Below, one piece after another: positions 22,031 to 40,881 of a stretch of DNA of 64,000 nucleotides. The DNA comes from Thiothrix unzii (GTDB taxonomy: Bacteria > Pseudomonadota > Gammaproteobacteria > Thiotrichales > Thiotrichaceae), in the NCBI RefSeq assembly GCF_017901175.1, contig NZ_CP072793.1, forward strand, positions 1,116,001 to 1,180,000, in the 5' to 3' direction. The translations under genes were made by a program, and so were the position numbers. Positions within the stretch are counted from its first letter, which is position 1. The number at the start of each line of letters is the position of its first letter. A model generated the notes under the pieces. The model made no database searches, had not been told where the DNA came from, and worked only from the letters and a program-made list of their open reading frames with translations.

Positions 22031-22042
22031 AGAGAAGTTTTG

Positions 22043-23227
22043 ATGAATATGGAACGGAAATTATTATTTGGTCAGCGGACAGTGGCAGCCCTGCCTATTC
22101 CAACGGATGAAAAAGTTGCAACATATTACGACACGCAATTAACTGGATTGTGTATTAGGGTGTATCCCAGTGGTAGAAAGGTCTTCTATGTCTACCGTAA
22201 GGTACGTGGTCGTCCAGAGCGGGTAAAATTGGATGCTTTCGGAACCATCACTGTACAACAAGCCCGCGAACTTGCGGTAGGTGTAAACATGCAAGTGGCT
22301 CAAGGGTTAAGTCCCACTTCCATACGGCAGGAAGAAAGAGCAGAACTGACCTTGGGCGAGTTATTTGAGATCTATCTTGAACGCCATGCCAAAGTCCATA
22401 AGCGCACTTGGACGGATGATGAAAAACGCTTCCATTATCATCTGTCCCATTGGAAACGTCGGCAACTTTCCGAAATACGTCGCAATGACATCCTCACTTG
22501 GCACGCCAAGACAGGCAAAGAACGAGGTGTTTATGCGGCTAACCATGCATTGGCGGTCTTGCGGGTTCTTTTCAATAAAGCTATCGAGTGGGAGTTTTTT
22601 GATGCGGTCAATCCCTGTGTTGGCGTGAAGAAGTTCCGTGTAACCTCAAGGGAGAGATTTCTTCAGCCACATGAAATGCAGAAATTCTTTGATGCACTCG
22701 ATGGCCTAGCCGAACCCTCTACACGGGATTTTTTCCTGATGTGCCTGTACACCGGAGCACGCAAAAACAACGTGCTGTCGATGCGTTGGGAAGACATTCA
22801 GTTTGAGCGTTATGAATGGCGGATACCGATGACTAAAAATGGTACGTCACAGATAGTTCCACTTATTGAACCAGCCGTGCTACTACTGAAAGGACGGCGT
22901 TCCTTAACGACCAGTGATTGGGTTTTCCCCTCCAGCCTGAATAAAACCGGACATCTGGTTGAACCCAAAAGTAGTTGGGACACAGTGCGCAAAACCGTTG
23001 GCTTGGAAGATTTGCGGATGCACGACCTACGCCGCAGTCTCGGCAGTTGGCAAGCCCGCACGGGAGCAAGTCTGGTCATCATCGGTAAAACGTTGAATCA
23101 CCAAAGCCCGCAAAGTACTCAAGTGTATGCCCGTTTGGATAGCGACCCAGTACGGCAGGCGATGGAAACAGCGGTCAGTGCGATGAAAACAGCGGCTAAT
23201 AAAAATAGAAACGCCAAGCCGAGTTAG
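22043..23227 (+). CDS. int: Tyrosine-type site-specific integrase of the ICE
   Basis: The 394-residue protein is a P4-like integrase. It has an N-terminal DUF4102-type arm-binding domain (YDTQLTGLCIRVYPSGRKVFYVYRKVRGRPERVKLDAFGTITV), a SAM-like core-binding domain and a catalytic domain with Arg near 240 (TGARKNN), HDLRR near 327-331 and the nucleophile Tyr near 362 (STQVYARLD). It should recombine the tRNA 3' end with attP. The ATG at 22043 was preferred to the adjacent TTG. Confidence 0.93.
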   Translation: MNMERKLLFGQRTVAALPIPTDEKVATYYDTQLTGLCIRVYPSGRKVFYVYRKVRGRPERVKLDAFGTITVQQARELAVGVNMQVAQGLSPTSIRQEERAELTLGELFEIYLERHAKVHKRTWTDDEKRFHYHLSHWKRRQLSEIRRNDILTWHAKTGKERGVYAANHALAVLRVLFNKAIEWEFFDAVNPCVGVKKFRVTSRERFLQPHEMQKFFDALDGLAEPSTRDFFLMCLYTGARKNNVLSMRWEDIQFERYEWRIPMTKNGTSQIVPLIEPAVLLLKGRRSLTTSDWVFPSSLNKTGHLVEPKSSWDTVRKTVGLEDLRMHDLRRSLGSWQARTGASLVIIGKTLNHQSPQSTQVYARLDSDPVRQAMETAVSAMKTAANKNRNAKPS

Positions 23228-23321
23228 GATGGTGCTCGGCTGTCTTGACTGGAGCGGCGGGGAAAACACGGTTGTGCTATCCTCGTACCTGACGTTCCAG
23301 TCAGCCCTAAAGGATGCCGCC

Positions 23322-24575
23322 ATGCCAGATTTAACCAACAACCTGTTCAAGCAAATCGCTCTTGGCGAAGATTCTGTGCTTGAATTGAAACGGGTTGAAT
23401 TCAAGGGTGGACAGATCAGCGCACCCCATCGCAATGGCATGGCCGATGAAATGGCAGCGATGGCAAACAGCAATACAGGTGTCATCGTGTTGGGGGTGGA
23501 TGACAAATCCAAGGCGATTATCGGCATCCCATCAGACAAAGTGGACGCTGTAGAAACATGGTTGCGAGACATTGCCAATGACCAGATTACCCCACCGTTA
23601 CTTTGCCGGATACGTAAGCTGTTTGCCCCAACCCCTGATGGTAATGAAACCGCGATAGTACGGATTGACATTCCTCGCAGCTTATTTGTACATCAAAGCC
23701 CCGGTGGCTACCTCTACCGCATCGGCAGCTCCAAACGGCAAATGACCCCAGATGCTCTCGCACGTTTATTCCAGCAGCGCAGTCAAGCAAGGATTATCCG
23801 TTATGATGAGCAAGCTGTTCCACAAGCCACCTTGGACGACCTGAAAACACCACTATGGCAGCGTTTCCGTTCCTCACTTTCTCCCAAAGATGACCGTGAA
23901 TTCCTGTCCAAACTGAAACTGATCACCTGCGATGAAGATGGCAATTGGCATCCTACCGTCAGTGGTGTGCTGATGGCGACAGAACGCCCCGCAGAATTCA
24001 TTACCAACGCCTACATTCAAGCCGTGGTCTACCGTGGCACGGAACGCAATGCCGCCTACCAACTGGATGCCAAGGATATTCATGGCCCGCTGGATGAACA
24101 AATCCGCGATGCCTGCAAATTTGTCGAGCGCAATATGCGGGTGTACGCGGTGAAAAAACCCAACCGCATTGAAACCCCACAATTCTCCCTCAGTGCCGTC
24201 TTTGAAGCCGTGGTGAATGCGGTAGCACATCGCGATTACTCCATCTACGGCTCAAAAATTCGCCTACACTTGTTTGCCGATCGTCTCGAACTGTTTTCAC
24301 CGGGCGCGATCCCCAACACCATGACAGTGGACAGCCTACCTGAACGGCAATCGGCACGGAATGAACTGCTGTGTTCATTGCTGGCGAAATGCCCAATGAA
24401 CGTGGATGCGATGGGTTCACAACGCAATTTTATCATGGACAAGCGTGGCGAAGGCGTTCCTATCATCCTCTCAGAAAGTGAGCAATTAGCAGGTAAACGC
24501 CCGGTTTACCGAATGATTGACGATGCGGAACTGTTGTTAACGCTGTTTGCAGCACCGTCACCGCATGGGGATTAA
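23322..24575 (+). CDS. AlbA_2/Schlafen-like domain ATP-binding protein
   Basis: The 417-residue protein has an N-terminal AlbA_2 domain (EDSVLELKRVEFKGGQ..., EMAAMANSNTGVIVLGVDD, PGGYLYRIGSSKRQM). The C-terminal part resembles the RecG-associated/HATPase_c_4 region (SLSAVFEAVVNAVAHRDYSIYGSKIRLHLFADRLELFSPG). This family is often in islands as putative regulators or defence factors; the role here is unknown. The start at 23322 follows AAGGA; an earlier start lacks support. It lies right after int, a typical cargo site. Confidence 0.7.
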   Translation: MPDLTNNLFKQIALGEDSVLELKRVEFKGGQISAPHRNGMADEMAAMANSNTGVIVLGVDDKSKAIIGIPSDKVDAVETWLRDIANDQITPPLLCRIRKLFAPTPDGNETAIVRIDIPRSLFVHQSPGGYLYRIGSSKRQMTPDALARLFQQRSQARIIRYDEQAVPQATLDDLKTPLWQRFRSSLSPKDDREFLSKLKLITCDEDGNWHPTVSGVLMATERPAEFITNAYIQAVVYRGTERNAAYQLDAKDIHGPLDEQIRDACKFVERNMRVYAVKKPNRIETPQFSLSAVFEAVVNAVAHRDYSIYGSKIRLHLFADRLELFSPGAIPNTMTVDSLPERQSARNELLCSLLAKCPMNVDAMGSQRNFIMDKRGEGVPIILSESEQLAGKRPVYRMIDDAELLLTLFAAPSPHGD

Positions 24576-24723
24576 AGGGCAGGGGTGTTGCCCTCAAAAC
24601 TATCGCACTTGACTGCAAAGCGATTTACGCCGTTTAAAATTGATAATTTTTCAACTTATTCGTTGAATTTTTTTACATTCCTGCACTCTATACCTACTTT
24701 TTAAGCAGTTAACGGTGTACACA

Positions 24724-25308
24724 ATGGCTAGAAAGAATGCGTTACCCACTTGGTATCCTGCGGAATGCCACCGGGATAATTGGCAATGGCAAGTTTCTCA
24801 GTGGATTGATGCGCTATCCTATCGCAGTCAGTTAGTGATCATGCAGGCACAGGGACTGTTAACAGAAGAGCATCTGGAAGCGGTGATTCATGGTTGCTCA
24901 CCAAAAGTACAGCCACGTACTGTCTCAATCCCTGTTGAAATTGATCAGCCTGATAACCTCTTGTTCAAGCAGTTTTCCGAAGCACTAGCCGAGGCTCGGC
25001 AGCAATCCGACTCGTCATTAGCGACGAACATCTGCCAACGTATCAGTACACCTCCCTCCAAATTTAAATTGCTTAACCTGATGGATAGTCTCGGTAAGTT
25101 GCATCAGTTGCGGGTGCTTGATTGGATTGATTTGGCTTTATGGTCGCGATTGACAGGTGTTACCTTCGAGGCCACTTACTTGGGTGATATTTTTTGGTGT
25201 GATGAAGATATTGATCGACGTTATCGCTTGGTGACGAGAACGCGCCCTTTGGCTTGCCAATTAATTGCTAAATCAGTAATTTATCGTTTGTTGCAGGTAA
25301 ATAGGTAG
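24724..25308 (+). CDS. DUF6387-like protein of ICEs
   Basis: The 194-residue protein begins MARKNALPTWYPAECHRDNW and has a C-terminal LRVLDWIDLALWSRLTGVTFEATYLGDIFWCDEDIDRRYRLVTRTRPLA segment. This resembles the DUF6387 family found between integrases and maintenance genes in SPI-7-like elements, from memory of the pattern (LP.W, DL.LW...G......L...IF). No function known. The preceding 148 bases are AT-rich and probably hold its promoter. Confidence 0.5.
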   Translation: MARKNALPTWYPAECHRDNWQWQVSQWIDALSYRSQLVIMQAQGLLTEEHLEAVIHGCSPKVQPRTVSIPVEIDQPDNLLFKQFSEALAEARQQSDSSLATNICQRISTPPSKFKLLNLMDSLGKLHQLRVLDWIDLALWSRLTGVTFEATYLGDIFWCDEDIDRRYRLVTRTRPLACQLIAKSVIYRLLQVNR

Positions 25309-25427
25309 ATATGGTGTTTGTTACAAATTGCTATTTTGATTAACTTTTCAGACATACCCAAAAGCGCAAAAACTCAATAAAAAGCACTTTAACTTGTCTT
25401 AACGCAACAACTTAAGGGTGACTTTCT

Positions 25428-25763
25428 ATGCATTTACATTCGACAGTGAAAACGAAACAACGTGTAAAAGCGAATCAACAACGTCTACAAGCCAAAATTA
25501 ACGCACAGATGGCTGAACGCGCTACTACTGGAGTAGTTGTCAATTTTGCATTAGAGAATAGACTCTCTACCCGAACAGCAGCGAGTTATTTAGGTATTCG
25601 TTCAGAAACGTTGGCACGTTGGCGTGCCGAAGAACGTTTACTGGGTTTTGAACAGCCCAATTTCTATCGGATTGGTAAGAAAATCGTTTACCTTAAAAAT
25701 GATCTTGATGAGTTTCTGCTGACACGCGGCGAAGCATCATTATCTAACGCCCGCATACGTTAA
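25428..25763 (+). CDS. Helix-turn-helix protein, probable excisionase-like factor
   Basis: The 111-residue basic protein has a MerR/Xis-type winged helix: LENRLSTRTAASYLGIRSETLARWRAEERLLGFEQPNFYRIGKKIVYLKNDLDEFLLTR. Such proteins bind DNA to direct excision or regulate early ICE genes. It lies between int and parA. Function is by fold and context only. Confidence 0.65.
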   Translation: MHLHSTVKTKQRVKANQQRLQAKINAQMAERATTGVVVNFALENRLSTRTAASYLGIRSETLARWRAEERLLGFEQPNFYRIGKKIVYLKNDLDEFLLTRGEASLSNARIR

Positions 25764-25852
25764 AAAAGCCCATACCTACTTTAGGATGTTAGTGTTTTAA
25801 CACCAACGTAAAGCACGCTTTATTTGCTGCGATAGATTAACGGAGTACGGCT

Positions 25853-26686
25853 ATGATTTTGACTGTGTGTTCAACCAAAGGCGGTGTTGGAAAAACGACA
25901 TTAACCGCCAATTTAGGTGGGTTGCTCGCCAGCCTTGGGAATCGCGTGTTATTAGTGGATGCGGATATACAACCCGCACTCTCCACCTATTACGCACTAA
26001 CTACCAAAGCACCGCAAGGATTGAAAAATCTACTGATGAATGCAGAGGCATCTAATAGTATTAGTGTCACCGATTTCGGGTGTGACTTGATTTATTCCAA
26101 TGATTCTGTGGGGGAGTTATCCAATTGGATGATTAATTGTCGGGATTGTTGGCGTTTTCTCAGTTACCGATTGCAAAAAATAAAAGCATCCTATGATTTT
26201 ATTTTAATTGATACCCAAGGAGCGGCAGGGCCGTTACAGGATGCCGCTATTTTTGCCGCCGATAAGTTGATTTCACCCATTCCCACCGAAACACTGTCGG
26301 CTCGTGAGTTCTCGCGGGGAATGGTGGGTATGTTGACCCGATTACGTACCGCATTTTATTACTCCGGGTTAACGATACCACCACTTGTTGGGATGCTCTA
26401 TCGTGTCGACCGTACCCGTGATGCCGCACTGGTAACGGCTGATCTACGCGGTCACGTCATCGAAACCTTGCAAGCCGCTCAAGCAAACGCGGATGGCCTG
26501 CCGAACTTAGCCATTAGCATTTTGGATGCTCATATCTCAGCCTCAGTTTGTTGGCGCGAAGCTGCCACGCTGGGTGTGCCCATCCACACCCTGACGAAAT
26601 ACCCACTGGCAAAGCTGCAATTGTTGGCCATCCTTGCCGAGTTGCAGGTTGTGCCGACGGCACAGGTCGAGAACATACGGAGCTAA
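25853..26686 (+). CDS. parA: ParA/Soj-family partition ATPase
   Basis: The 277-residue protein begins MILTVCSTKGGVGKTTLTANLGGLLAS, the deviant Walker A. LLVDADIQPALSTYY and FILIDTQGAAGPLQDAAIFAADKLISPI follow. In SPI-7/PFGI-1 ICEs a Soj-like ParA heads the maintenance module and is needed for element stability. The stop codon lies in a hairpin. Confidence 0.9.
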   Translation: MILTVCSTKGGVGKTTLTANLGGLLASLGNRVLLVDADIQPALSTYYALTTKAPQGLKNLLMNAEASNSISVTDFGCDLIYSNDSVGELSNWMINCRDCWRFLSYRLQKIKASYDFILIDTQGAAGPLQDAAIFAADKLISPIPTETLSAREFSRGMVGMLTRLRTAFYYSGLTIPPLVGMLYRVDRTRDAALVTADLRGHVIETLQAAQANADGLPNLAISILDAHISASVCWREAATLGVPIHTLTKYPLAKLQLLAILAELQVVPTAQVENIRS

Positions 26687-26703
26687 CCCCGCGAAGGGGT
26701 TAG
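26683..26703. other. Hairpin spanning the parA stop codon
   Basis: CTAACCCC-GCGAA-GGGGTTAG forms an 8-bp stem containing the parA TAA. No T run follows, so it could stabilise the mRNA end or attenuate read-through to parB rather than terminate. Confidence 0.6.
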
Positions 26704-26804
26704 TCGTTCCATCATGGCAACATTGAATCTGTTGAGCATCTCGCTTGCGCTAGGTAAAGCATGAATACCTCAAAACAACAACCTCATGCAAAATAGGGGA
26801 GAAC

Positions 26805-28472
26805 ATGACGGTCAATAAAATACCTTCAAGACGCGGTTTGCTGGTTGAGCATTTTGATAATAACCAGAATGTCAGCTCATCGGATCAAGTTGTTGGTACG
26901 ATAGTCGGCATGGTGGTTGCTGTGGATAGGATTCGTTTCTTTGAAGGCAATCCACGTCGTTCACCGAATGAATGCTACGCCGCGATTAAAGAATCCATCC
27001 GTGAAATTGGTTTGGATACCCCACTGCCCATTAGCCATCGTCCCACCGATGAGCCGGGACATTACATTATCTATAAAGGCGGTAATACGCGCTTACGTGC
27101 CTTACAAGAATTATGGGAAGAAACCCATGATGAACGTTTCTTTCGGGTTCGTTGTGAGTTTCACCCCTTTATCTCGGACATCGACGCATTAATCAGCCAC
27201 CTGCGTGAAAACGATTTGCGTGGCAATATGACCTTGATTGACAGGGCATTAGCGGTACAAGCAGCCAAAGCGACACTAGAGCAAGAATTGGGTGAGCTAT
27301 TATCTCAGCGTCAATTACAAGCAGCCCTTGAACAGCGCGGATTCCCTATCAGTCAGGGAATGATTTCAAAATTGGAATACGCCGTAAAACTGAATATTGC
27401 CATTCCTATTGCTTTATCCTGTGGTATGGGCAAACTTCAGATTGAACGTTTAACCAAACTCGAAAAAGCTGCACTGAAAGTTTGGCAATGCCATAGCCCT
27501 AGCAATGGCACAGAACAACAGTTTAGGGAAACCGTATTTTTACCTGCCCTTGCCAGCAGTGATGCTGAAGATTGGTTATACGAGCGTGCAGAGACTTTAG
27601 TAAAAGAAAAGTTAGTAGCGGCACTACCATCAAGTGTTGACAGGACGCAGGTATTGACTGGCTTTAGTCAGGCAATGGACGGTAAAGCATTAATAGATTA
27701 TCCCCAGCTTGAATTTGTGTCGTCACCAATAGCTAATGTTTTACCTGAACCATACCCCGATTATCCAGATCCCGAACCTGTTGATGCACCGTTAAACCAA
27801 TATGACTTACTCGCTAGTCATACAACGGCGACTGATAACATTCACTATCATAATGCGGATGGGAATATTATTGAACAAAAAGAGGTTATTGTTGGCGGTA
27901 ATGGGCGTTGGCTGGTAAAGCTCAAACACTTACGCACCCGTAATTACGAGATTGCCAGTAAATTGACAGACAGCAGCCCCATTCCGCAAGCCAGTAATGC
28001 CATTGTCTCGCTTGAAACCGGTTATGGATTCTTCGTGGTCGACGTATTTAATCCAGATTTTATGGCGCAATTAATCGCCAAAACCTTAGGTGATGAAGCG
28101 TGTTCTGATACAGAAAAAGCCGATGCTGAGCGTGACCACATGCACGCATCGAACCTTTGGTGGTTATTGGCGGAATTGTGTGGTTTGTTTCCTGATCAGC
28201 ATGAGCCTTGGATGACTGCGCCCGATTCAGTAAGGGCGGCACAGATTGATGCCGATAGTTATATCCGCGATGAAGATTTATTGCACAAGGTGCATACCGT
28301 TGTGCCTATTTCAGCGCGGTTACGTACTTTTTGGTTAGCGATGCCGTTAACCCAATTGGAGCTTATTTTTGAGTTGATCCGTAATACCGTAGCCATTGTT
28401 GAGCTGGTATCAGATCATCGTCAATACACGGATGATGCAAGCCCTTGGGAGATCATCACCCGTGATTATTGA
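26805..28472 (+). CDS. parB: ParB-family protein of PFGI-1-class ICEs
   Basis: The 555-residue protein has a ParB/Srx nuclease-like fold near residues 40-130 (VDRIRFFEGNPRRSPNECYAAIKESIREIGLDTPLPISHR..., YKGGNTRLRALQEL), then an HTH region (FPISQGMISKLEYAVKLN). The long C-terminal part is typical of the ICE ParB family (TIGR03764-like, from memory). It follows parA with GGGGAG as ribosome site. It probably binds a centromere-like site; two candidate arrays lie downstream. Confidence 0.85.
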   Translation: MTVNKIPSRRGLLVEHFDNNQNVSSSDQVVGTIVGMVVAVDRIRFFEGNPRRSPNECYAAIKESIREIGLDTPLPISHRPTDEPGHYIIYKGGNTRLRALQELWEETHDERFFRVRCEFHPFISDIDALISHLRENDLRGNMTLIDRALAVQAAKATLEQELGELLSQRQLQAALEQRGFPISQGMISKLEYAVKLNIAIPIALSCGMGKLQIERLTKLEKAALKVWQCHSPSNGTEQQFRETVFLPALASSDAEDWLYERAETLVKEKLVAALPSSVDRTQVLTGFSQAMDGKALIDYPQLEFVSSPIANVLPEPYPDYPDPEPVDAPLNQYDLLASHTTATDNIHYHNADGNIIEQKEVIVGGNGRWLVKLKHLRTRNYEIASKLTDSSPIPQASNAIVSLETGYGFFVVDVFNPDFMAQLIAKTLGDEACSDTEKADAERDHMHASNLWWLLAELCGLFPDQHEPWMTAPDSVRAAQIDADSYIRDEDLLHKVHTVVPISARLRTFWLAMPLTQLELIFELIRNTVAIVELVSDHRQYTDDASPWEIITRDY

Positions 28473-28479
28473 GATTGAT

Positions 28480-29019
28480 ATGGATTTGAGCTTTAGCGAC
28501 ATGGCTGAAGCCACGCTCAATGACACGCAACGGGCATTGTTAGCCGCACAGCCAGACGTATTACGCGCAGCAGTCTATCAGCGTATTGAAGCATCACTAC
28601 GGGTATCCGCGAAATTGCAATTAGCCTCCTGTTATCAGTTAGGCATTAGCACCTTTACCTTTGAGCGGGTCATTCGTGAGGAGCATCACAAATTAGCGGC
28701 TGAGTTTGCGCATCAGGACTTGATGACACGCTTGGTCGCTGGTGGTGCTTCCTTCACCGTGTTGCATACTCTCTGCAACATGGATAAAGCCACGTTTACC
28801 CGTATTCGCCATGCGTTAGGGTTAAAAGTACCGCCGAGCCGCAAGTCGATTGATGATGCAACCTCGGTCAGTATTTACCGCGACTGGGAGCTTATGAAGC
28901 GGGCAGTCACGCCGGAAAGCCTCTTGCAGTTACACGAATCCAGTGGGGCATCCATTAATGCCATTTGGAGCTTGCTACAAGATTGGCAATACGTCCAAGC
29001 TAAAATGGCGCGGAGGTAA
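28480..29019 (+). CDS. DUF2857 domain protein
   Basis: The 179-residue helical protein (DLSFSDMAEATLNDTQRALLAAQPDVLRAAVYQRIEAS...) matches DUF2857, a protein always near parB in SPI-7/PFGI-1 ICEs. A GTG at 28462 behind GGGAG, overlapping the parB stop, is an equally good start. Function unknown; FlhC-like DNA-binding relatives have been suggested for this group, which I cannot check. Confidence 0.75.
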   Translation: MDLSFSDMAEATLNDTQRALLAAQPDVLRAAVYQRIEASLRVSAKLQLASCYQLGISTFTFERVIREEHHKLAAEFAHQDLMTRLVAGGASFTVLHTLCNMDKATFTRIRHALGLKVPPSRKSIDDATSVSIYRDWELMKRAVTPESLLQLHESSGASINAIWSLLQDWQYVQAKMARR

Positions 29020-29022
29020 TCC

Positions 29023-30372
29023 GTGTCAGGTATGCACCATTACTTACTGCAAATGATTGAACGCAGCCAAGCAACGCTCGTGATGAAAGCGGGTAAGTCA
29101 GCACAGGATGGCCTGTTGTTTTTAGGCAATCCGCAGTTGGTGTTTCCGCGTTTGTTGTTTGACGATCCGGTACTGGAACCGGTAGATCGCAATGTATGGG
29201 CAGTCATCAAGCTCCATGCCGCTGATGGTGATTCCGTTACTGCGTTCCCTACTTATGAAGAAATCATGCTGCGTTGCAATATCGGCTCCAAAGCCACGGT
29301 ATCCCGTAGCATCGCCATCTTGCGTGCGTGTCGCTGGCTAACGGTTTGCAAAGCCCGCTTACGGGATGCCAAGGGGCGCGTAAAAGGCAACATTTATGCA
29401 CTACATGATGAACCACTGCAATTGGCTGAAACACTAGAACTGGATGATACCTACCTGCATTTTCTTCAAGAAACCGCGCAACATAAACAAAACCCTCATC
29501 CGCGTGCCATTGGTGTTGCTACAACGGTTTTACAAGATATGCAAAGCCAAGTTGGTGCAGGTATTGATATAACCGAACTCGAATCCCCACTCTTACGTCG
29601 GAAACAAGCAACAGCATGGCAACAAGAGACGGTCGTTGAAGGCCGGTTTTTTGCCTTTACCAAGTCAGGCATTGAAAAAGTTAACAGCCGTGATTACCTA
29701 AAAGCAACCAAGCGCACCGAAGTACAGAAACTGTACTTAGCCTCCTCTGCCACAACATCACCCAGTACAGTTTCTGTACCCAGTCAATCCAAACCGCCAT
29801 CTGATGGCGATGAGTACAGAAACTGTACTGATGCACGTGGGGGTAGTACAGAAACTGTACTACGTAGTATTAGTAGTAAGTATATTTATAAAAATACTAC
29901 TACTAATACAGCCGTCTCAGTGAGTACAGAAACCGTACTGATATGGCCTGACAGCTTGCAAGGCAGCAACCGTGATTTAGTGGCGATGCAGTTAAAAACC
30001 TTACCCGATGTGCATCACCAGCCTGTTATTGACGCATTGTCTGCCACGTTGACCGCCATCGCGACCGGTCATGCCAAACCATTACGTTCGTTATTGGCCT
30101 ACACCCGCCGATTATGTGTGTTGTCACAAGCTGGGCAGTTAAATCCCATTATTCCCATAACTCCCCCAACGAAGGCAGAAGCATCCGTCAGTGATGCGGT
30201 GACAGTTCAAGAACTCAATGACCTTGCCAATGACATCAAAACCTTACAGGGATTCCAAAAAGCAGAACCAGAAAATTCTCTTCAATGGATTGCCTACGGG
30301 GATCAAATTGCAATGAAGAAAGCAGAGTGGTATCGCCGCCGTGATTTATTACCGGCAGTAGCGCAAGCATAG
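29023..30372 (+). CDS. STY4528-family ICE protein carrying an internal repeat array
   Basis: The 449-residue protein has an N-terminal domain (LLFLGNPQLVFPRLLFDDPVLEPVDRNVWAVIKLHA...TAFPTYEEIMLRCNIGSKATVSRSIAILRACRWLTVCKARLRDAKGRVKGNIYALHDEPL) that matches the STY4528 family and looks like a winged-helix replication initiator. The middle (residues about 230-310) is low-complexity Ser/Thr because the DNA carries palindromic repeats. The GTG start is preceded by GGAGG. A role in ICE replication or its control is inferred from the fold and the iteron-like array. Confidence 0.78.
   Translation: MSGMHHYLLQMIERSQATLVMKAGKSAQDGLLFLGNPQLVFPRLLFDDPVLEPVDRNVWAVIKLHAADGDSVTAFPTYEEIMLRCNIGSKATVSRSIAILRACRWLTVCKARLRDAKGRVKGNIYALHDEPLQLAETLELDDTYLHFLQETAQHKQNPHPRAIGVATTVLQDMQSQVGAGIDITELESPLLRRKQATAWQQETVVEGRFFAFTKSGIEKVNSRDYLKATKRTEVQKLYLASSATTSPSTVSVPSQSKPPSDGDEYRNCTDARGGSTETVLRSISSKYIYKNTTTNTAVSVSTETVLIWPDSLQGSNRDLVAMQLKTLPDVHHQPVIDALSATLTAIATGHAKPLRSLLAYTRRLCVLSQAGQLNPIIPITPPTKAEASVSDAVTVQELNDLANDIKTLQGFQKAEPENSLQWIAYGDQIAMKKAEWYRRRDLLPAVAQA
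29721..29939. repeat. Five palindromic iterons inside the STY4528-family gene
   Basis: AGTACAGAAACTGTACT occurs at 29721-29737, 29813-29829 and 29845-29861. It occurs as a reverse-orientation copy at 29764-29780 (one end base differs) and with one change at 29923-29939. Arms AGTACAG and CTGTACT are separated by three bases. The spacing is 43, 49, 32 and 78 bases. A candidate binding array for the STY4528, ParB or another ICE protein. Confidence 0.85.
29867..29909. other. AT-rich hairpin next to the iterons
   Basis: GTATTAGTAGTA (29867-29878) and its exact complement TACTACTAATAC (29898-29909) enclose an almost pure A/T loop of 19 bases. It lies between the fourth and fifth iteron. The combination resembles a replication-origin unwinding element. 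Confidence 0.7.
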
Positions 30373-30376
30373 GCGG

Positions 30377-30542
30377 GTGATTCCCTAGGAATCACTTGTG
30401 GTGTAACTGAGTACGGTCGGGGTAGGTGATTCCCTAGGAATCACTTGCGGTGTGACTGAGTGCAGTCGGGGTAGGTGATTCCCTAGGAATCACTTGCAGT
30501 GTGACTGAGTGCAGTCGGGGTAGGTGATTCCCTAGGAATCAC
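30377..30542. repeat. Four 49-bp-period palindromic repeats
   Basis: GTGATTCCCTAGGAATCAC starts at 30377, 30426, 30475 and 30524, each exactly 49 bases apart. The 30-base spacer is also conserved and contains GACTG-AGTG-CAGTC. The array fills the gap between the STY4528 and TIGR03761 genes. Candidate parS/centromere, origin or operator. Confidence 0.9.
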
Positions 30543-30597
30543 CTTCAGGTGCGGGTTACTGGAACAGAGTTTGAATCAACAAGTAGTGAGAAATGAC

Positions 30598-31467
30598 ATG
30601 GCGAAATCGAAAGAAGAAGTAAGAGCAGAGCTGAACCGGCTTTTTAAAAAGGACGATGCACAAGCGGGTGAAGCCGTCGCGTTAGGACGCTCCTTTTTGA
30701 ATGCCCCCAGTTTATTGGATGCACGTAACGGACAGATAGGCGCATTGCGGGGTGAAGCTAGCGTAACGATTCATACCCGGCAGGCACAGCAATTATTGAC
30801 CGGTCGTGAGGCGGTTGACGGGCGGCCACCTGTCATGGGGCTGATGCGTTTTAGCAGTATTTTGACGCAGATCACAACAGCAGCCAAACAGGATGATCCG
30901 TGGGCAGATTGGCATCTGGTGCAACTTGAAGAAAAGTTGACAGCAGCCGGGGAACATCTGACGCAGCAGCTCAGCAATATCGAGCGCGTCTTGAAAACGA
31001 ATAAACTGATGGATGTGCAGGTATCGGAATCGGTCAAACCGATGAAAGTATCTATTGGGTTTGCCTCCAGTTATGCCTACTGGGTAGCGCGGTTGATCTT
31101 GCAATACGACGAAGTGGTGCGTGCAGTACTCACCGCTAAACACGTAGCGATGATCAGCCATGAGGCCGCTAATCAACTGCTGAGCGATGCAGGGGCAAGC
31201 CTGCGGCGCGTGTTTGAATCAACGGCTCGGTATCGCTTTACAGGACTGACTCGTGCCGATGTGTTGGCAAACAATGCACGAATCGCTGAGGCTGAAAAAC
31301 GCTTAGACAGAAAGCTGGAACAAGTTCCTGTCGACATCTTGGATAAATCCAGACGTGCGAGTTATGCGCCCACGATTGTGAGCGCAGGTCAGGTGACACC
31401 CTTAACGCCAACAGCAGCAGCGGTGGCGGAGGATGTTGCGACAGCCGCTACCGAGGACGTGGTTTAG
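30598..31467 (+). CDS. TIGR03761-family (PFL_4669-like) ICE protein
   Basis: The 289-residue protein contains GALRGEASVTIHTRQAQQLLTGR...PPVMGLMRFSSILTQITTAAKQDDPWADWHLVQLEEKL..., the pattern of the PFL_4669 family found in PFGI-1-class ICEs. Function unknown, conserved beside ssb and topB. The ATG at 30598 (MAKSKEEVRAEL) was chosen over a TTG nine codons upstream. It is the first gene after the 49-bp array, which may control it. Confidence 0.75.
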   Translation: MAKSKEEVRAELNRLFKKDDAQAGEAVALGRSFLNAPSLLDARNGQIGALRGEASVTIHTRQAQQLLTGREAVDGRPPVMGLMRFSSILTQITTAAKQDDPWADWHLVQLEEKLTAAGEHLTQQLSNIERVLKTNKLMDVQVSESVKPMKVSIGFASSYAYWVARLILQYDEVVRAVLTAKHVAMISHEAANQLLSDAGASLRRVFESTARYRFTGLTRADVLANNARIAEAEKRLDRKLEQVPVDILDKSRRASYAPTIVSAGQVTPLTPTAAAVAEDVATAATEDVV

Positions 31468-31593
31468 GTTATTTAGCTGATGGCTCATTTAGCTAGTGGG
31501 CTATTTAGTGCCGCCTAAAGGGCTTTTAAGGGTAAGGGGGAGCGTGGCTTTCCCCCTTGAGAAACCCAAGGCAGGGTGGAAGGTAAAGTGGCA

Positions 31594-32037
31594 ATGCAGC
31601 AGGTAGTGACGATGGGATTGTACGGATTACCGTTTGAAGGGATTAAGGGCATTCGCAGCGAGATTGCTAGGTTGCAGCAGCAGGAGGTGCAATGGATGGA
31701 TGAGTTGAACGCTTTGCAGCAGGTGATGCGCACGACGTTTGGTTATCGCTTGCCGCTCACACTGAGCCGCAGAAAGAATAAAGCCTATGCACCGCTGATG
31801 TGGCGACAAGGAAAAACCAATCGTCGATTATACGGAGGTTTGGAGACACCGGAAGGGCAGGGGATTTTAAAAGCATTGCCACCGGAGCAGCAACGTGAAC
31901 TGCTGAACATTGAGTTCAAGCGGATACACCTGAATCATGTGCTGGGCTTGTTGCAGTATGAGATAGCGCGTTTAAAGCGGCTAGAGAGTGAATTTGAGGC
32001 GTGGCGTGATCGGATGCGGGATGTGAACCAGCATTAA
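31594..32037 (+). CDS. DUF3158-family ICE protein
   Basis: The 147-residue basic, coiled-coil-like protein (IKGIRSEIARLQQQEVQWMDELNALQQVM..., LMWRQGKTNRRLYGGLETPEGQGILKALPPEQQRELLNIEFKRIHLNHVLGLLQYEIARLKRLE) fits DUF3158. It is placed before ssb as in related ICEs. GGAAGG lies about ten bases before the ATG. A GTG at 31576 would add six residues. Confidence 0.75.
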   Translation: MQQVVTMGLYGLPFEGIKGIRSEIARLQQQEVQWMDELNALQQVMRTTFGYRLPLTLSRRKNKAYAPLMWRQGKTNRRLYGGLETPEGQGILKALPPEQQRELLNIEFKRIHLNHVLGLLQYEIARLKRLESEFEAWRDRMRDVNQH

Positions 32038-32085
32038 AATGCGCCAGATTATTTTGATTATTTTTTGTTGATAGGGGATTAAGCG

Positions 32086-32463
32086 ATGGCAAACCGATTT
32101 GAAGGACGTGGCAACTTAGGGAGTGATCCCGTGTTGAAATACGTGGAAGTGTCCGGTGAGAAACGGGCAGTATGTGAGTTTCGGGTGTACTTTGACCGCC
32201 AAGTGCGGGACGGGGATGAATGGCGCGAACACGGCGGGTTTTGGTTGAACGTGACCCAGTGGGGTAAACGGGGTGAGTTGGCAGGCAAGCTCCTCGTCAA
32301 AGGTTGTCGGGTGCTGGTGATCGGTAGTCTGGTGCAGGAGACATGGGCAGACAAGGACACTGGTGAGGAGAAAAGCCGTCTGGTACTGGATGCGGATAGT
32401 GTGGATATGGATTTGGTGCGTGTAGAATCCGTCAAATTTATCGAAAAGCGGGGGGAATCATGA
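32086..32463 (+). CDS. ssb: Single-stranded DNA-binding protein of the ICE
   Basis: The 125-residue OB-fold protein (FEGRGNLGSDPVLKYVEVSGEKRAVCEFRVYFDRQVR..., GGFWLNVTQWGKRGELAGKLLVKGCRVLVIGSL) lacks the acidic DDDIPF tail of housekeeping SSB. It belongs to the ICE-specific short SSBs that protect transferred or replicating single strands. AGGGG precedes the ATG. Confidence 0.85.
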   Translation: MANRFEGRGNLGSDPVLKYVEVSGEKRAVCEFRVYFDRQVRDGDEWREHGGFWLNVTQWGKRGELAGKLLVKGCRVLVIGSLVQETWADKDTGEEKSRLVLDADSVDMDLVRVESVKFIEKRGES

Positions 32464-32497
32464 ACCATAAACTATTCACCATGCCGCAGGTGTGTTG

Positions 32498-34597
32498 ATG
32501 CTATACCTGTGTGAGAAGCCGAGTCAGGCTAGGGATATTGCCAAGGTGTTAGGGGCTAGTGGGCGTGGTGACGGTTATCTCCAAGGGCAAGGCATCACGG
32601 TAACGTGGTGCTTTGGGCATTTACTGGAACAGGCGGAACCGGAAGCTTACGGGCAACAGTACAAACGCTGGCGTTTGGATGTACTGCCCATTTTGCCGGA
32701 ACAGTGGATTTTGGACGTGAAGAAATCCGGGGCAAAGCAATTCAAGGTGGTGAAAGCCCTGTTGGCAAAAGCCGACCATGTGGTGATTGCCACGGATGCT
32801 GACCGCGAAGGCGAAATGATTGCACGGGAAGTCATGGCACTGTGCCGCTACCGGGGGCAAGTGTCACGCTTATGGTTATCGGCCTTGGACGATGCCAGTA
32901 TCAAGAAAGCCTTGGGACAGCTCAAACCGGGGCATGAAACCGAAAAGCTCTACCAAGCCGGATTAGCGCGTAGCCGTGCCGATTGGCTGGTGGGCATGAA
33001 TTTAAGTCGTGCCTACACACTGGTGGCTCAATACAACGGGCAATTAGGCGACAAAGGCGGGGCATTGAGCGTGGGGCGAGTGCAACCCCCCACATTACGC
33101 TTAGTCGCGGATCGGGATCAGCAGATACAACACTTTGTACCCGTGGATTACTGGGATGTACAAGCCAATTGTTTACCCGACAGCACCACCCACCGCTTTA
33201 AAGCCAACTGGGTTCCCATCAAGGGCATGGACGGTATTGATGCAGAAGGATGGTGTTTAGACAGTGCCTTGGCGCAGCAGGTTGTCACAACCTGTCAGGG
33301 GCAACCAGCGAGCGTATTACGTTGTGACACGGAGCGTAAAAAGCAGGCCGCGCCGTTACCGTATGACCTATCCGGTTTACAGGTCGAAGCCTCACGGCGT
33401 TGGGGCTTAGGTGCGCAACAGGTGTTGGACATTGCTCAAGCCCTGTACGAAAAGCACAAGCTCACCACCTACCCACGCACCGATTGCGGCTACCTGCCGG
33501 TGTCGCAACACGCAGAAGCAGCCGGGGTGTTCAAGGCGTTAGTCGCCACCGACAGCAATATCGCCGGGTTGGTGGCACAAGCCAATCACAGCATTAAGGG
33601 CAAAGTTTGGGACGACAGCAAAATCACCGCTCACCACGGCATTATTCCCACCGCTGCTGCTGGTAGTTTGGAGCATTTATCCGAACCCGAATTGTTCTTG
33701 TACGACCTCATCCGTCGCCGCTACCTTGCCCAATTTTTCCCGGCACACGAGTATGACCAGACCGTGATTGAGTTGGATTGCCAAGGCTACAAATTCCGGG
33801 CATCCGGGCGGGTTGACCGCGTGGCAGGTTGGAAAACAGCCTACCAAGAACCCGAAACTGATACCGGTGCGGAAGACAAAAAAGCAGGTGCAGGCCATGA
33901 AGAAGCGCAGGCTCTGCCACAGTTGAGTGCAGGCGACACGGTGTTGGCACAGGATTTGGTCAGTCTCACACGCCAAACCAAACCACCCGCACCTTACACC
34001 GAAGGCACGCTGATCCAAGCCATGAAAGGCATTGCCAAGCTGGTGGAAAATCCCAAGCTCAAAGCCATTTTGCGCGAAAATGCCGGGATCGGCACCGAAG
34101 CCACCCGTGCCAACATCATCGAAACTCTCTTACACCGCAAACTGCTGGAGCGGATTGGCAAGAAAAAACAGTTACGCGCCACCCCCAAAGGCATGGCACT
34201 GATCGCCATGTTACCCAATGCCGTCAAAGACCCCGCACTCACCGCCGCATGGGAACAAGCACTCGATTCCATTGCCAGCGGTGAGATGACGCTGGCGCAG
34301 TTCATGGACAAGCAACAAAACTGGCTGCTGAAAGTACTGGAACGCGCCAAGTCAGGCGTGAACATACCGGTACAGCCGGAATCTGTAGCAGTGGTGGGGA
34401 AAGCTGATGGAGCAACCATGACTACTCGCGGGAATACCAGCGGCCTGCAAGCTGGTGCAGTGGCTCAGGATGCAGATGGTAAAACGTGTCCGGCGTGCGG
34501 TAAACCCATGCTCAAACGCAACGGCAAGTACGGGGATTTTTGGGGGTGCAGCGGGTTTCCGGGGTGTAAGACGATTGTAAAACTGAATGGTGCTTAA
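32498..34597 (+). CDS. topB: DNA topoisomerase III
   Basis: The 699-residue type IA topoisomerase has a Toprim domain (LYLCEKPSQARDIAKVLG, DADREGEMIAREV), the active Tyr near residue 325 in TTYPRTDCGYL, and a C-terminal four-Cys zinc finger (CPACGKPMLKRNGKYGDFWGCSGFPGC). ICE-borne TopB is a marker of the SPI-7/PFGI-1 class and resolves replication or transfer intermediates. Three possible starts (GTG, TTG, ATG) lie in tandem; the ATG is used. Confidence 0.93.
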   Translation: MLYLCEKPSQARDIAKVLGASGRGDGYLQGQGITVTWCFGHLLEQAEPEAYGQQYKRWRLDVLPILPEQWILDVKKSGAKQFKVVKALLAKADHVVIATDADREGEMIAREVMALCRYRGQVSRLWLSALDDASIKKALGQLKPGHETEKLYQAGLARSRADWLVGMNLSRAYTLVAQYNGQLGDKGGALSVGRVQPPTLRLVADRDQQIQHFVPVDYWDVQANCLPDSTTHRFKANWVPIKGMDGIDAEGWCLDSALAQQVVTTCQGQPASVLRCDTERKKQAAPLPYDLSGLQVEASRRWGLGAQQVLDIAQALYEKHKLTTYPRTDCGYLPVSQHAEAAGVFKALVATDSNIAGLVAQANHSIKGKVWDDSKITAHHGIIPTAAAGSLEHLSEPELFLYDLIRRRYLAQFFPAHEYDQTVIELDCQGYKFRASGRVDRVAGWKTAYQEPETDTGAEDKKAGAGHEEAQALPQLSAGDTVLAQDLVSLTRQTKPPAPYTEGTLIQAMKGIAKLVENPKLKAILRENAGIGTEATRANIIETLLHRKLLERIGKKKQLRATPKGMALIAMLPNAVKDPALTAAWEQALDSIASGEMTLAQFMDKQQNWLLKVLERAKSGVNIPVQPESVAVVGKADGATMTTRGNTSGLQAGAVAQDADGKTCPACGKPMLKRNGKYGDFWGCSGFPGCKTIVKLNGA

Positions 34598-34827: not shown

Positions 34828-34924
34828 CTTCACACCTCATTCTTTACGGAATGGGAGACTGTCCTTCCGTTCAATCCACTTAACCGAAACATTGGTTGGA
34901 AGGCTCTGGAATCGCAACCAGCCC

Positions 34925-35088
34925 AAAAATAGCGAACAGTTTTCTATGTGTATTGTTGCACTCTCAACAAGCCCTAGCGGTCGAACCTTACGGTTTGGCA
35001 GCAAACCCTGCAAAGCCCTGTCGTGCCACTAGCACAGGGCGGTATCCTGATAGGATATTGGTGGTTATTTTTTACTTATCTTTTACTT
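34925..35088 (+). ncRNA. Long structured leader module, divergent copy (M0)
   Basis: This gene-less stretch keeps the skeleton of modules M1-M3 with different stem sequences. TTTCTATGTGTA is followed by stem TTGTTG/CAACAA (34953-34970; GTGTTC/GAACAC in the others) and GCCCTAGC. Stem AACC/GGTT carries a TTAC loop (34984-34995), and hairpin TATCCT/AGGATA (35043-35057) lies between GCGG and TTGGTGG. Preserved pairing with changed sequence argues for a functional RNA. The rest of 34786-34924 holds only the candidate promoter. Confidence 0.7.
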
Positions 35089-35162
35089 ACCCTGCTGGGA
35101 GCAACACTCCCGACGGGAAATGTTTCTCCAGCATCATTGCGTCCATTTCAAGGAGAAACACC
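35089..35162 (+). promoter_or_regulatory. Short leader L0 before the DUF3577 gene
   Basis: First hairpin GGGAG-CAACA-CTCCC; then TGTTTCTCC can pair with GGAGAAACA, which contains the ribosome site. The most divergent member of the leader family; spacing between the arms is longer than in others. Confidence 0.7.
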
Positions 35163-35576
35163 ATGTCTACTGCTTCTAATTCCCAATATTTCAATCTTCA
35201 CACCGCTGGCATTGGCTATATTTCACGTATTCGTGAAGTAAAACCGAAAAAAGGTGGTGCATTCCTCGCCTGCAAGGTTTCAGCTTTGTGCGGTGCTGCG
35301 GATGCGGTTGAATACCGTCCTTTCGATTGCCGGGTATCCGGTGCTGAAGCGGAAAAGCTCGTTTATCGCTGCATGGATGCAGTCAATGCCGATAAAAAGG
35401 TACTGATTGCGTTCAACATCGGTGACATTTACCCTGATCTCTATGAGTTCAACGGTGAAACCAAGGTCATGATGAAAGGCCGTCTGTTGCGTATCGACTG
35501 GATCAAGGTAGATGGGCAAACCGTCTACACTGCACCTAAACGTGCTGCTGAAGATACAGAAGCTGACGTTGCCTGA
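35163..35576 (+). CDS. STY4534-family ICE replication protein (DUF3577)
   Basis: The 137-residue protein (STASNSQYFNLHTAGIGYISRIREVKPKKGGAFLACKVSALCGAADAVEYRPFDCRVSGAEAEKLVYRC...) matches DUF3577/STY4534, a small protein next to topB in SPI-7-class ICEs; an OB-like fold and DNA role are assumed in the family name. The start follows AAGGAG within leader L0; a longer upstream frame is only the leader read through. Confidence 0.85.
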   Translation: MSTASNSQYFNLHTAGIGYISRIREVKPKKGGAFLACKVSALCGAADAVEYRPFDCRVSGAEAEKLVYRCMDAVNADKKVLIAFNIGDIYPDLYEFNGETKVMMKGRLLRIDWIKVDGQTVYTAPKRAAEDTEADVA

Positions 35577-39562: not shown

Positions 39563-40881
39563 AGAAATCTGTGTAACTGCGTTTTGCTCATAAATCAAAC
39601 AAAGTCTTTGAGCCTGTCTTCAAACAGGAGCATAAAGCGGTTGAGTGCCGATTTCCAGTTATGGATGGGCATCGTCCATTTGCGCGAAGCCTGTTCAATG
39701 GCAAGGAAAACCACTTTTTTGGCAGCATCTTCGTTAGTAAATACCTTGCGCTTGTTCACCGCCTTGCGCACCACGCTGTTGAGGGATTCGATGGCGTTAG
39801 TGGTGTAGATGGCTTTGCGGATGTCCGCAGGGTAAGCAAAGAAGGTGTTGAGGTTTTCCCAGTGGTTGAGCCACGAACGGCTGATTTGTGGGTATTTGTC
39901 ATTCCAGCGTTCACCAAACTGCTGGAGGGCGAGTTTCCCTTGGTCTTCGGTGCTGGCTTGGTAGATGTCCTTGAGGTCGGTGGTGACGGCTTTGTAATCT
40001 TTCCATGCCACGAATTTCAAGGAGTTGCGTACCATGTGGACGATGCAAAGTTGGATGTCAGTTTTGGGGAACACCGCATTGATGGCATCGGGGAAGCCTG
40101 TCAGCCCATCCACGCAGGCAATCAGGATGTCCTGGACACCCCGATTTTGCAGTTCAGTCAAAACGCCTAACCAGAATTTCGCACCTTCATTTTCGGACAG
40201 CCATAGCCCCAACAGTTCTTTATGCCCTTGCAAGTTGACCGCCAATGCAAGGTAGACTGATTGGTTAACCACTTGTTTTCCCTTGCGGATTTTCATCACC
40301 ATCGCATCAAGGTAGACAATCGGGTAGACCGGGTCTAACGGGCGGGATTGCCATGTTGTCACCTGATCCAACACCGATGCCGTGACACTGGATACCAAGG
40401 TCGGGGAAACCTCTGCCCCGTACAGCTCTTGGAAGCAATCCACGATTTCACGCGTACTCATGCCTTTGGCATACAGGTACAGGATTTGGTCATCCATCTT
40501 GGTGAAGCGGGTTTGGTTTTTCTTCACCAGTTGCGGGCTGAAACTGCCATCACGGTCACGCGGGGTTTGGATTTCAACCGTGCCTTGGTCGCTTTTCAGC
40601 AGCTTGCTCATGTAACCGTTACGGCTGTTCCCTACCTCTGGGGTTTTCGCATGGCGGTCATACCCTAGATGGTCATCCAATTCCGCGTTTAAAGCAGCCT
40701 CTACCGTCATCTTCAGCAGGAGTTGCGATAGTTGCTTGAGGTCTGCTTCCGTCTTGATGCTTTTTGCCAAGTCTTTGGCTAGAGCTTGGAGTTGTGCCTG
40801 TTCCATTGTGTCGTACTCTCTCATCGTTACCCGCATTAGGGTAGCCTATCAGAGCAGTTACACAGTTTGGTTTACAGTCTC
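39553..40881 (-). mobile_element. IS256-family insertion sequence, complete, 1329 bp
   Basis: The 28-bp imperfect terminal inverted repeats start GAGACTGTAAA at both ends (39553-39580 and 40854-40881 reversed) and end TGTGTAACTGC. The target duplication GGCATTGT is present at 39545-39552 and 40882-40889. One transposase gene fills the element. An exact duplication suggests a recent insertion. Confidence 0.93.
39595..40836 (-). CDS. IS256-family (mutator-type) transposase
   Basis: The 413-residue DDE transposase has the helical insertion and motifs of the family: YLDAMVMKIRKG (first Asp), ACVDGLTGFPDAINAVFP (second Asp), and TTNAIESLNSVVRKAVNKRKVF (Glu). The frame is intact and full length. 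Internal starts at 40824 (MREYDT) or 40806 (MEQAQ) are alternatives. The gene is on the opposite strand to the ICE cassettes. Confidence 0.93.
   Translation of the reverse strand: MRVTMREYDTMEQAQLQALAKDLAKSIKTEADLKQLSQLLLKMTVEAALNAELDDHLGYDRHAKTPEVGNSRNGYMSKLLKSDQGTVEIQTPRDRDGSFSPQLVKKNQTRFTKMDDQILYLYAKGMSTREIVDCFQELYGAEVSPTLVSSVTASVLDQVTTWQSRPLDPVYPIVYLDAMVMKIRKGKQVVNQSVYLALAVNLQGHKELLGLWLSENEGAKFWLGVLTELQNRGVQDILIACVDGLTGFPDAINAVFPKTDIQLCIVHMVRNSLKFVAWKDYKAVTTDLKDIYQASTEDQGKLALQQFGERWNDKYPQISRSWLNHWENLNTFFAYPADIRKAIYTTNAIESLNSVVRKAVNKRKVFTNEDAAKKVVFLAIEQASRKWTMPIHNWKSALNRFMLLFEDRLKDFV

Follow-up and report, generated by a model that had tools for sequence, protein, structure and literature searches.

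A putative replication origin inside the STY4528 gene of an integrative and conjugative element of Thiothrix unzii

Which protein starts the replication of the PFGI-1/SPI-7-type integrative and conjugative elements (ICEs), and at which site? Resistance, virulence and catabolic genes are disseminated by ICEs of the PFGI-1, SPI-7, ICEclc and ICEHin1056 group, whose vegetative initiator had been unclear. We analysed a stretch of 64,000 nucleotides of the Thiothrix unzii contig NZ_CP072793.1 (positions 1,116,001 to 1,180,000 of the forward strand; hereafter the window), which carries such an element and, within it, a STY4528-family gene with a cluster of palindromic boxes and an AT-rich hairpin in its coding sequence. 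We consider it likely that the vegetative origin (oriV) of this ICE lies here, inside the gene of its own initiator, and we name STY4528 as the likely initiator, together with its DNA site and the residues that would read it. In silico, this is supported by the box array, which recurs in relatives, by the selection that acts on the DNA word and by the way in which that word covaries with the recognition helix of the protein. An intragenic origin would help to explain how a large class of gene-spreading elements is copied. The gene and its parts are, in window positions:

29023..30372, + strand: STY4528-family gene, proposed replication initiator, 449 amino acids (NF040582)
29110..29556, + strand: N-terminal winged-helix domain, approximately residues 30-178 (AlphaFold2 model)
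29290..29295, + strand: codons of K90 and A91, start of the recognition helix, residues 90-102 (model helix; covariation)
29722..29736, no strand: box 1, GTACAG-AAA-CTGTAC, codon phase 0
29765..29779, no strand: box 2, GTACAG-TTT-CTGTAC, codon phase 1
29814..29828, no strand: box 3, GTACAG-AAA-CTGTAC, codon phase 2
29846..29860, no strand: box 4, GTACAG-AAA-CTGTAC, codon phase 1
29867..29909, no strand: AT-rich hairpin, mostly GTA/TAC units, proposed unwinding or helicase-loading element (inverted-repeat search)
29924..29938, no strand: box 5, GTACAG-AAA-CCGTAC, past the hairpin, codon phase 1
29932..30138, + strand: C-terminal helical domain, approximately residues 304-372, with profile-level likeness to lambda-O-like C-termini (model helices 314-369)

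Five matches to AGTACAG-N3-CTGTACT at no more than two mismatches begin at positions 29721, 29764, 29813, 29845 and 29923, which is where a preliminary description of this DNA had placed five copies within 220 coding bases. Copies 1, 3 and 4 match perfectly; copies 2 and 5 each deviate at one position, and the spacer of copy 2 reads TTT, i.e. the copy lies in the opposite orientation. The box itself is a 15-bp palindrome with the half-site GTACAG and a 3-bp spacer, and the array together with the hairpin spans positions 29721-29939. Dinucleotide-shuffled versions of the window averaged 0.11 matches and never had five (0/100), while synonymous shuffles of the gene, which kept protein and codon usage, reached at most three copies and five in none of 5000; an array test with looser settings had given 1/200 for the window gene. 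Exact GTACAGNNNCTGTAC sites number only four in the 3.72-Mb genome, all of them array copies, the fifth copy having one mismatch; two further one-mismatch sites lie elsewhere in the genome. The five copies encode the peptides VQKLY, STVSV, EYRNC, STETV and STETV in phases 0, 1, 2, 1 and 1. One DNA word read in three codon phases implies that the DNA and not the peptide is preserved, and within the tract of the Ser/Thr-type genes of the family AGT accounts for 183 of 210 serine codons versus 205 of 1577 elsewhere in the same genes; both observations bear out the earlier proposal that DNA rather than protein is under selection. A comparison with L008, the nearest relative found (75% protein identity to the window STY4528), shows identity at 57 of 60 half-site letters, at 78 of 122 positions in the remainder of the linker and at 424 of 531 in the N-terminal domain. 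Box 2 is the least conserved in this comparison (10/15).

The sample of relatives consisted of 130 STY4528 genes, namely 50 loci (including the window's own, L006) and 80 of 574 confirmed relatives; a single-protein query of genome contigs had returned no relative, and an alignment query was used instead. At 85% DNA identity these genes fall into 81 clusters, one of which is the window's gene. The array test called for at least three N6-N3-N6 boxes in the linker, equalled by at most 4 of 400 synonymous shuffles, and was passed by 41 of the 81 clusters, with the array in the same linker. L101 was left out of the 41, as its array is the downstream second array and not in the linker, and L038 and L104 were counted as failing, as the test chose their downstream array, despite three CTTCAA-type linker boxes in each. 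More than one codon phase is used in 35 of the 41 passing clusters (two phases in 23, three in 12, one in 6). Half-sites vary by lineage and include GTACAG, GTTCGG, CTTCGG, GTTCCA, CTTCCA, GTTTCC, CTTCAA/CTTTAA, GTTCAA, GTGCAA and others. The expectation that STY4528 genes of other ICEs would carry GTAC-type palindromes at the same place was borne out for the place in these 41 clusters, by the strict test, but mostly not for the half-site: the GTAC-type box is a trait of the window's lineage and not general to the family.

The AT-rich inverted repeat previously described between copies four and five has perfect 12-bp arms (29867-29878 and 29898-29909, 19 nt between them), and a 12-bp stem at this place was reached by one of 1000 synonymous shuffles. 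Its arms are identical to those of L008 at 20 of 24 positions, and the GTA tract is six bases longer in L008. Among the relatives, a GTA-rich tract commonly lies 3' of the boxes and in many is paired with a TAC-rich tract; its form is (GTA)n in the window's group, TACGTACGTA in several enterics and CAGTACAGTAC in ICEHin1056. The stem score is at least 8 in 39 of 52 Ser/Thr-type clusters, the 52 including two pattern misfires (L060, L104). A loose GTA-tract pattern, with matches in 68 of the 81 clusters and none in the window's own gene, carries no weight. Runs of TAG trinucleotides beside the last box (29867-29909 and in relatives) resemble DnaA-trios, with no DnaA box nearby.

The half-site covaries with the protein. 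In the AlphaFold model the recognition helix (90-102) starts at K90. Covariation was analysed in two sets of clusters. Set A comprises 53 clusters, with seven two-copy chance arrays left out (L044, L050, L063, L084, L106, L141, L142) and the consensus assigned by hand for L045 and L059; the second, set B, was not blind, since its linkers were known before the motif pattern was written. Base 1, the outer base of the half-site, received no call in 5 of the 81 clusters (L050, L063, L131, L141, L142). In set A, residue 90 is K, R or N in 43 of 43 clusters with G as the outer base and H, D, E or T in 10 of 10 with C, and it is the top column for base 1 by normalised mutual information (0.36, next 0.16). 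Over both sets, base 1 is the one expected from the class of residue 90 (G for K/R/N; C for H/D/E/T/S) in 75 of 76 clusters, the single exception being L090, and L106 and L128 agree by tie-break only, the tie having been settled by taking the letter that appeared first, which favoured the hypothesis. By individual sites in set B, base 1 is C at 21/23 sites of T-type genes and G at 20/24 sites of R-type genes. Leave-one-out prediction of base 1 made two errors with residue 90, the best of 155 columns, compared with five for the next column (D47) and 26 for the majority-rule baseline. On a tree built without the helix, Fitch changes numbered 8 for base 1, 7 for the residue class and 8 for the pair jointly, against a mean of 22 and a minimum of 17 for base 1 over 200 label shuffles.

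Residue 91 is, narrowly, the top column for base 5 in set A (0.46, next 0.44), where E goes with G in 17 of 17 clusters, K with C in 5 of 5 and A with A in 15 of 16; its leave-one-out errors number 5, versus 7 for the next columns and 29 for the baseline. For bases 3 and 6, the best-tracking columns are others that lie outside the recognition helix. Covariation across the clusters thus argues strongly that residue 90 tracks the outer half-site base, and suggests less clearly that residue 91 tracks base 5. Together with the arrays found at the same place, the covariation supports the earlier reading of this locus as a putative ICE origin within an initiator gene.

The window protein belongs to STY4528_fam (NF040582, 167.6 bits; curated cut-off 130). 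HTH_36 is the only Pfam family that it matches at E <=0.1 (E 6.8e-5, below the gathering score), and the PHROG family 'replication initiation O-like' matches residues 60-164 weakly (E 1.2e-5); PHROG gave no match to the pKLC102 STY4528 protein. The AlphaFold2 model of residues 30-226 has a predicted local distance difference test score (pLDDT) of 87.6, and its top five structure matches are Dna or Rep replication proteins with Z scores of 6.1-6.8: Geobacillus primosomal DnaB (6.8), 4pql (6.5), which we take to be a pSK41-type Rep, DnaD (6.3), the Rep-DNA complex 5kbj (6.1) and a DnaD model (6.1). The next matches are a Vibrio protein of unknown function (5.8), RctB (5.5) and LexA (5.5). The MDR initiator 4pta was matched at Z 5.9. 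The matches to 5kbj and 4pql cover 100-103 residues with a root-mean-square deviation of 4.2-5.2. The winged-helix, initiator-like N-terminus of the preliminary description finds some support in the identity of the top five matches, but the scores are middling and Foldseek alone is not significant; we treat the modelled winged-helix replication-protein fold as a lead. Similarity to the C-terminal part of the STY4528 profile extends to 21 weak-scoring proteins from the same order, seven of which were scanned: six match Phage_rep_O (one below cut-off) and one HTH_36 (below cut-off). Among these relatives, the lambda-O-like genes L030, L033, L020 and L026 bear intragenic palindrome arrays of their own (AACCAAnnnTTGGTT, TTCCGAnnnTCGGAA).

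The gene sits in an ICE backbone of a tyrosine integrase (22040), ParA, ICE ParB, DUF2857, STY4528, PFL_4669, a single-stranded DNA-binding protein (SSB) and TopB, with a STY4534-family protein, RadC, F-type TraU, TraN, TraE and TraB, and also TraV. Family searches identified the neighbours that had been named in outline as parAB, ssb and topB; they are given here with a second repeat array:

25853..26686, + strand: ParA-type ATPase (family search)
26805..28472, + strand: ICE ParB (TIGR03764), candidate binder of the second array (family search)
30377..30542, no strand: second array, four copies of GTGATTCCCTAGGAATCAC with a 49-bp period, proposed centromere (parS) or accessory iterons (repeat search)
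30571..31467, + strand: PFL_4669-family ICE protein, AcaB domain (family search)
32086..32463, + strand: single-stranded DNA-binding protein, SSB (family search)
32492..34597, + strand: DNA topoisomerase III, TopB (family search)

A gene for a STY4534-family 'ICE replication protein' lies 3' of topB (34896-35576); its product could act as an additional replication factor. A gene for a Mutator-family transposase (PF00872, 395.7 bits) is located within the ICE on the opposite strand (39595-40836, -), and ARAGORN found no tRNA genes in the window. Among 20 distinct open reading frames (ORFs) scanned with Pfam or NCBIfam, a part of the window's ORFs covering 22040 to approximately 46650 and the transfer region, none was named as replicative DnaB helicase; annotated dnaB is present on pKLC102, ICEHin1056 and pPant4. 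The Thiothrix ICE, with no dnaB in the scanned ORFs from int to topB, may depend on the helicase of its host.

The GTGATTCCCTAGGAATCAC repeats occupy the gap between the STY4528 stop codon and the PFL_4669-family gene. In 40 of the 81 clusters, the region from -300 to +1200 of the stop contains a 16-21-bp palindrome in two or more copies, a result that none of the 20 letter shuffles per cluster matched; many of these palindromes have a GTG...CAC outline, and a few of the 40 clusters carry other motifs (e.g. L050, L062, L131). The downstream array of pKLC102 has 15 copies, 57 bp apart among the copies listed. By analogy, the 4 x 49-bp array is a candidate for a ParB-bound centromere and may serve as one: a parS just 3' of repC is possible in repABC plasmids, which a partition site 3' of STY4528 would parallel.

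Apart from this centromere role, we infer a mechanism of dimer binding, melting and helicase recruitment. The winged-helix N-terminus of STY4528 would bind the 15-bp boxes as symmetric dimers, with residue 90 reading the outer base and residue 91 probably reading base 5 of each half-site. Assembly of STY4528 on the clustered boxes would melt the adjoining AT-rich GTA/TAC hairpin, and the C-terminal domain, common to lambda-O-like proteins, would recruit a helicase, probably that of the host. In the protein, the stretch that encodes the DNA site would be a floppy linker. More tentatively, STY4528 could represent a large family of Pseudomonadota ICE initiators with intragenic origins, in which a two-residue code sets the origin word and perhaps the incompatibility group, and in which the hairpin presents TAG trinucleotides on both strands in the manner of DnaA-trios, loading helicases both ways without DnaA. 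Should the code hold, protein sequence would be enough to predict the origin word, and perhaps ICE compatibility.

Several observations weigh against an origin at this place. No DnaA box (TTATCCACA, at most one mismatch) was found in the gene or between 27770 and 32399, and the 17 such sites in the window are no excess over the 14.8 expected by chance; no clean switch in GC skew is visible where the array lies. The linker array test was failed by 40 of the 81 clusters, many of which show just one to three looser boxes, and L063, L131 and L141 have neither clear boxes nor a clear tract. Only in 17 of the 75 clusters tested did the stem exceed every one of 60 shuffles, and L012, L041 and L053 retain the GTA tract without pairing, the right side being ACA-rich in L041 and L012. 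Structural Z scores of 5.5-6.8 are middling, with RctB tied with LexA at 5.5; at E <=0.001 Foldseek by itself returned nothing, and no initiator was among the matches of a profile search against PDB sequences. The plasmid pPant4 carries a separate replication initiation protein, for which reason STY4528-bearing plasmids were dropped as proof of an origin. Finally, both the window and pKLC102 encode another protein that bears the name 'ICE replication protein' (STY4534 family), and replication of excised ICEclc depends on TraI and oriT1 according to the available part of PMC6561031, which also mentions residual foci that may point to other mechanisms; given this dependence, some relatives may replicate mainly from oriT.

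These last points would also suit boxes that act as an operator through which STY4528 represses or activates its own operon, with replication starting elsewhere, from oriT and the relaxase or by way of the STY4534-family protein. The covariation shows binding specificity and not replication, the copy number of ICEclc depends on TraI and oriT1 (PMC6561031, in the part available), and the LexA repressor is on a par with RctB as a match of the N-terminal model. Such an operator is nevertheless unlikely. The layout of the boxes matches that of the pSK41 Rep boxes and ori inside rep (PMC5703833, in the part available). The boxes moreover lie approximately 700 bp past the start codon and adjoin an AT-rich tract, replication genes stand on both sides of them, the top five structural matches are Dna/Rep proteins, and pKLC102 (100,000 of its 103,532 bases) has no product named initiator besides the STY4534 'ICE replication protein', DnaB and the relaxase. 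Partition sites are often repeated palindromes, and parB lies one gene upstream; that the boxes are the centromere (parS) of the ICE ParB, unrelated to initiation, is still very improbable, as the half-site bases follow STY4528 residues 90 and 91 and the separate tandem palindrome array 3' of the gene is the better centromere candidate (cf. repABC, PMC3155836, in the part available). Palindromes also fold in RNA, and the tract encodes serine and threonine runs, and the repeats and hairpin could accordingly act in the mRNA (structure, pausing, decay) or be a by-product of a repetitive Ser/Thr linker. This is the least probable account: the same DNA word in three phases is contrary to selection on the peptide, and base 1 follows a recognition-helix residue encoded approximately 430 bp away.

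An ICE origin at this place had been predicted before: a putative oriV has been published for PFGI-1 at a matching place and with a matching layout; its authors found no Rep protein, and the mode of replication was not clear (PMC2647930, in the part available). For Haemophilus ICEs, the accessible part of PMC2258188 gives a putative oriV with iteron-like and AT-rich repeats, called consistent with pKLC102, SPI-7 and PAPI. ICEHin1056 orf5 (1223 bp) is labelled ssb-like and is absent from the mutants named in the part of PMC3739013 available to us. By size and gene order orf5 is the STY4528 gene (L065, 2992-4215), and the ssb label looks mistaken. In the open literature, as distinct from subscription papers and as far as the texts were accessible, we found no statement of STY4528 as an initiator with an intragenic origin; where named, it is merely listed.

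The closest likeness is to the putative oriV of PFGI-1 and pKLC102. The published palindrome contains GTTCGG-AAT-CCGAAC (PMC2647930, same part), which is the box in the STY4528 genes of pKLC102 and enterics, and the window repeats the layout, with boxes at 29721-29939 and four 49-bp repeats ahead of the PFL_4669-family gene (30571). It differs in its GTACAG box, and the available part of PMC2647930 does not give the PFL_4668 product as binder, a GTA/TAC hairpin or a recognition code. In the DnaA-trio of the basal unwinding system (BUS) of oriC, the consensus 3'-GAT-5' equals 5'-TAG-3' (PMC8287927, in the part available), the unit of the tract that follows the last STY4528 box; the STY4528 tract lacks the nearby DnaA boxes of a DnaA-dependent origin and often forms a two-armed hairpin. 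In repABC plasmids, oriV lies within repC near an A+T-rich stretch, no DnaA box was found and a parS is possible just 3', while the accessible part of the same source describes no comparable box array (PMC3155836). The likeness to repABC is one of architecture, RepC sequence lying outside the comparison, and no RepC-named family was among the matches of the 10 proteins scanned from 22040 to 34597.

In the pSK41 Rep of the RepA_N type, a winged-helix N-terminus binds boxes in the middle of the gene, the site encodes a dispensable linker and the C-terminal domain makes contact with DnaG primase; the hybrid pPR9 Rep has a helix-turn-helix of pfam13730, the Pfam family that STY4528 matches below cut-off (PMC5703833, in the part available). 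The STY4528 gene shares the central boxes of RepA_N plasmids as architecture and not as homology: those plasmids belong to low-GC Gram-positive hosts, the RepA_N domain (PF06970) was not found in the window STY4528 at E <=0.1, and STY4528 has no significant sequence similarity to solved Rep proteins and middling fold similarity. Lambda O is likewise an initiator with intragenic ori repeats that are followed by an AT-rich stretch. The C-terminal profile of STY4528 extends to O-like proteins from its own order; the N-terminal family is a different one, the window STY4528 having no match to Phage_rep_O (PF04492) at E <=0.1. By analogy, the locus is best explained as an intragenic origin that would work like those of pSK41 Rep, lambda O or repC. 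Novelty is partial: this is a variant of a known architecture, at a place where an origin had already been predicted for relatives of the ICE; to it the present comparison adds a likely binder of the boxes, a putative recognition code and a recurrent GTA/TAC tract.
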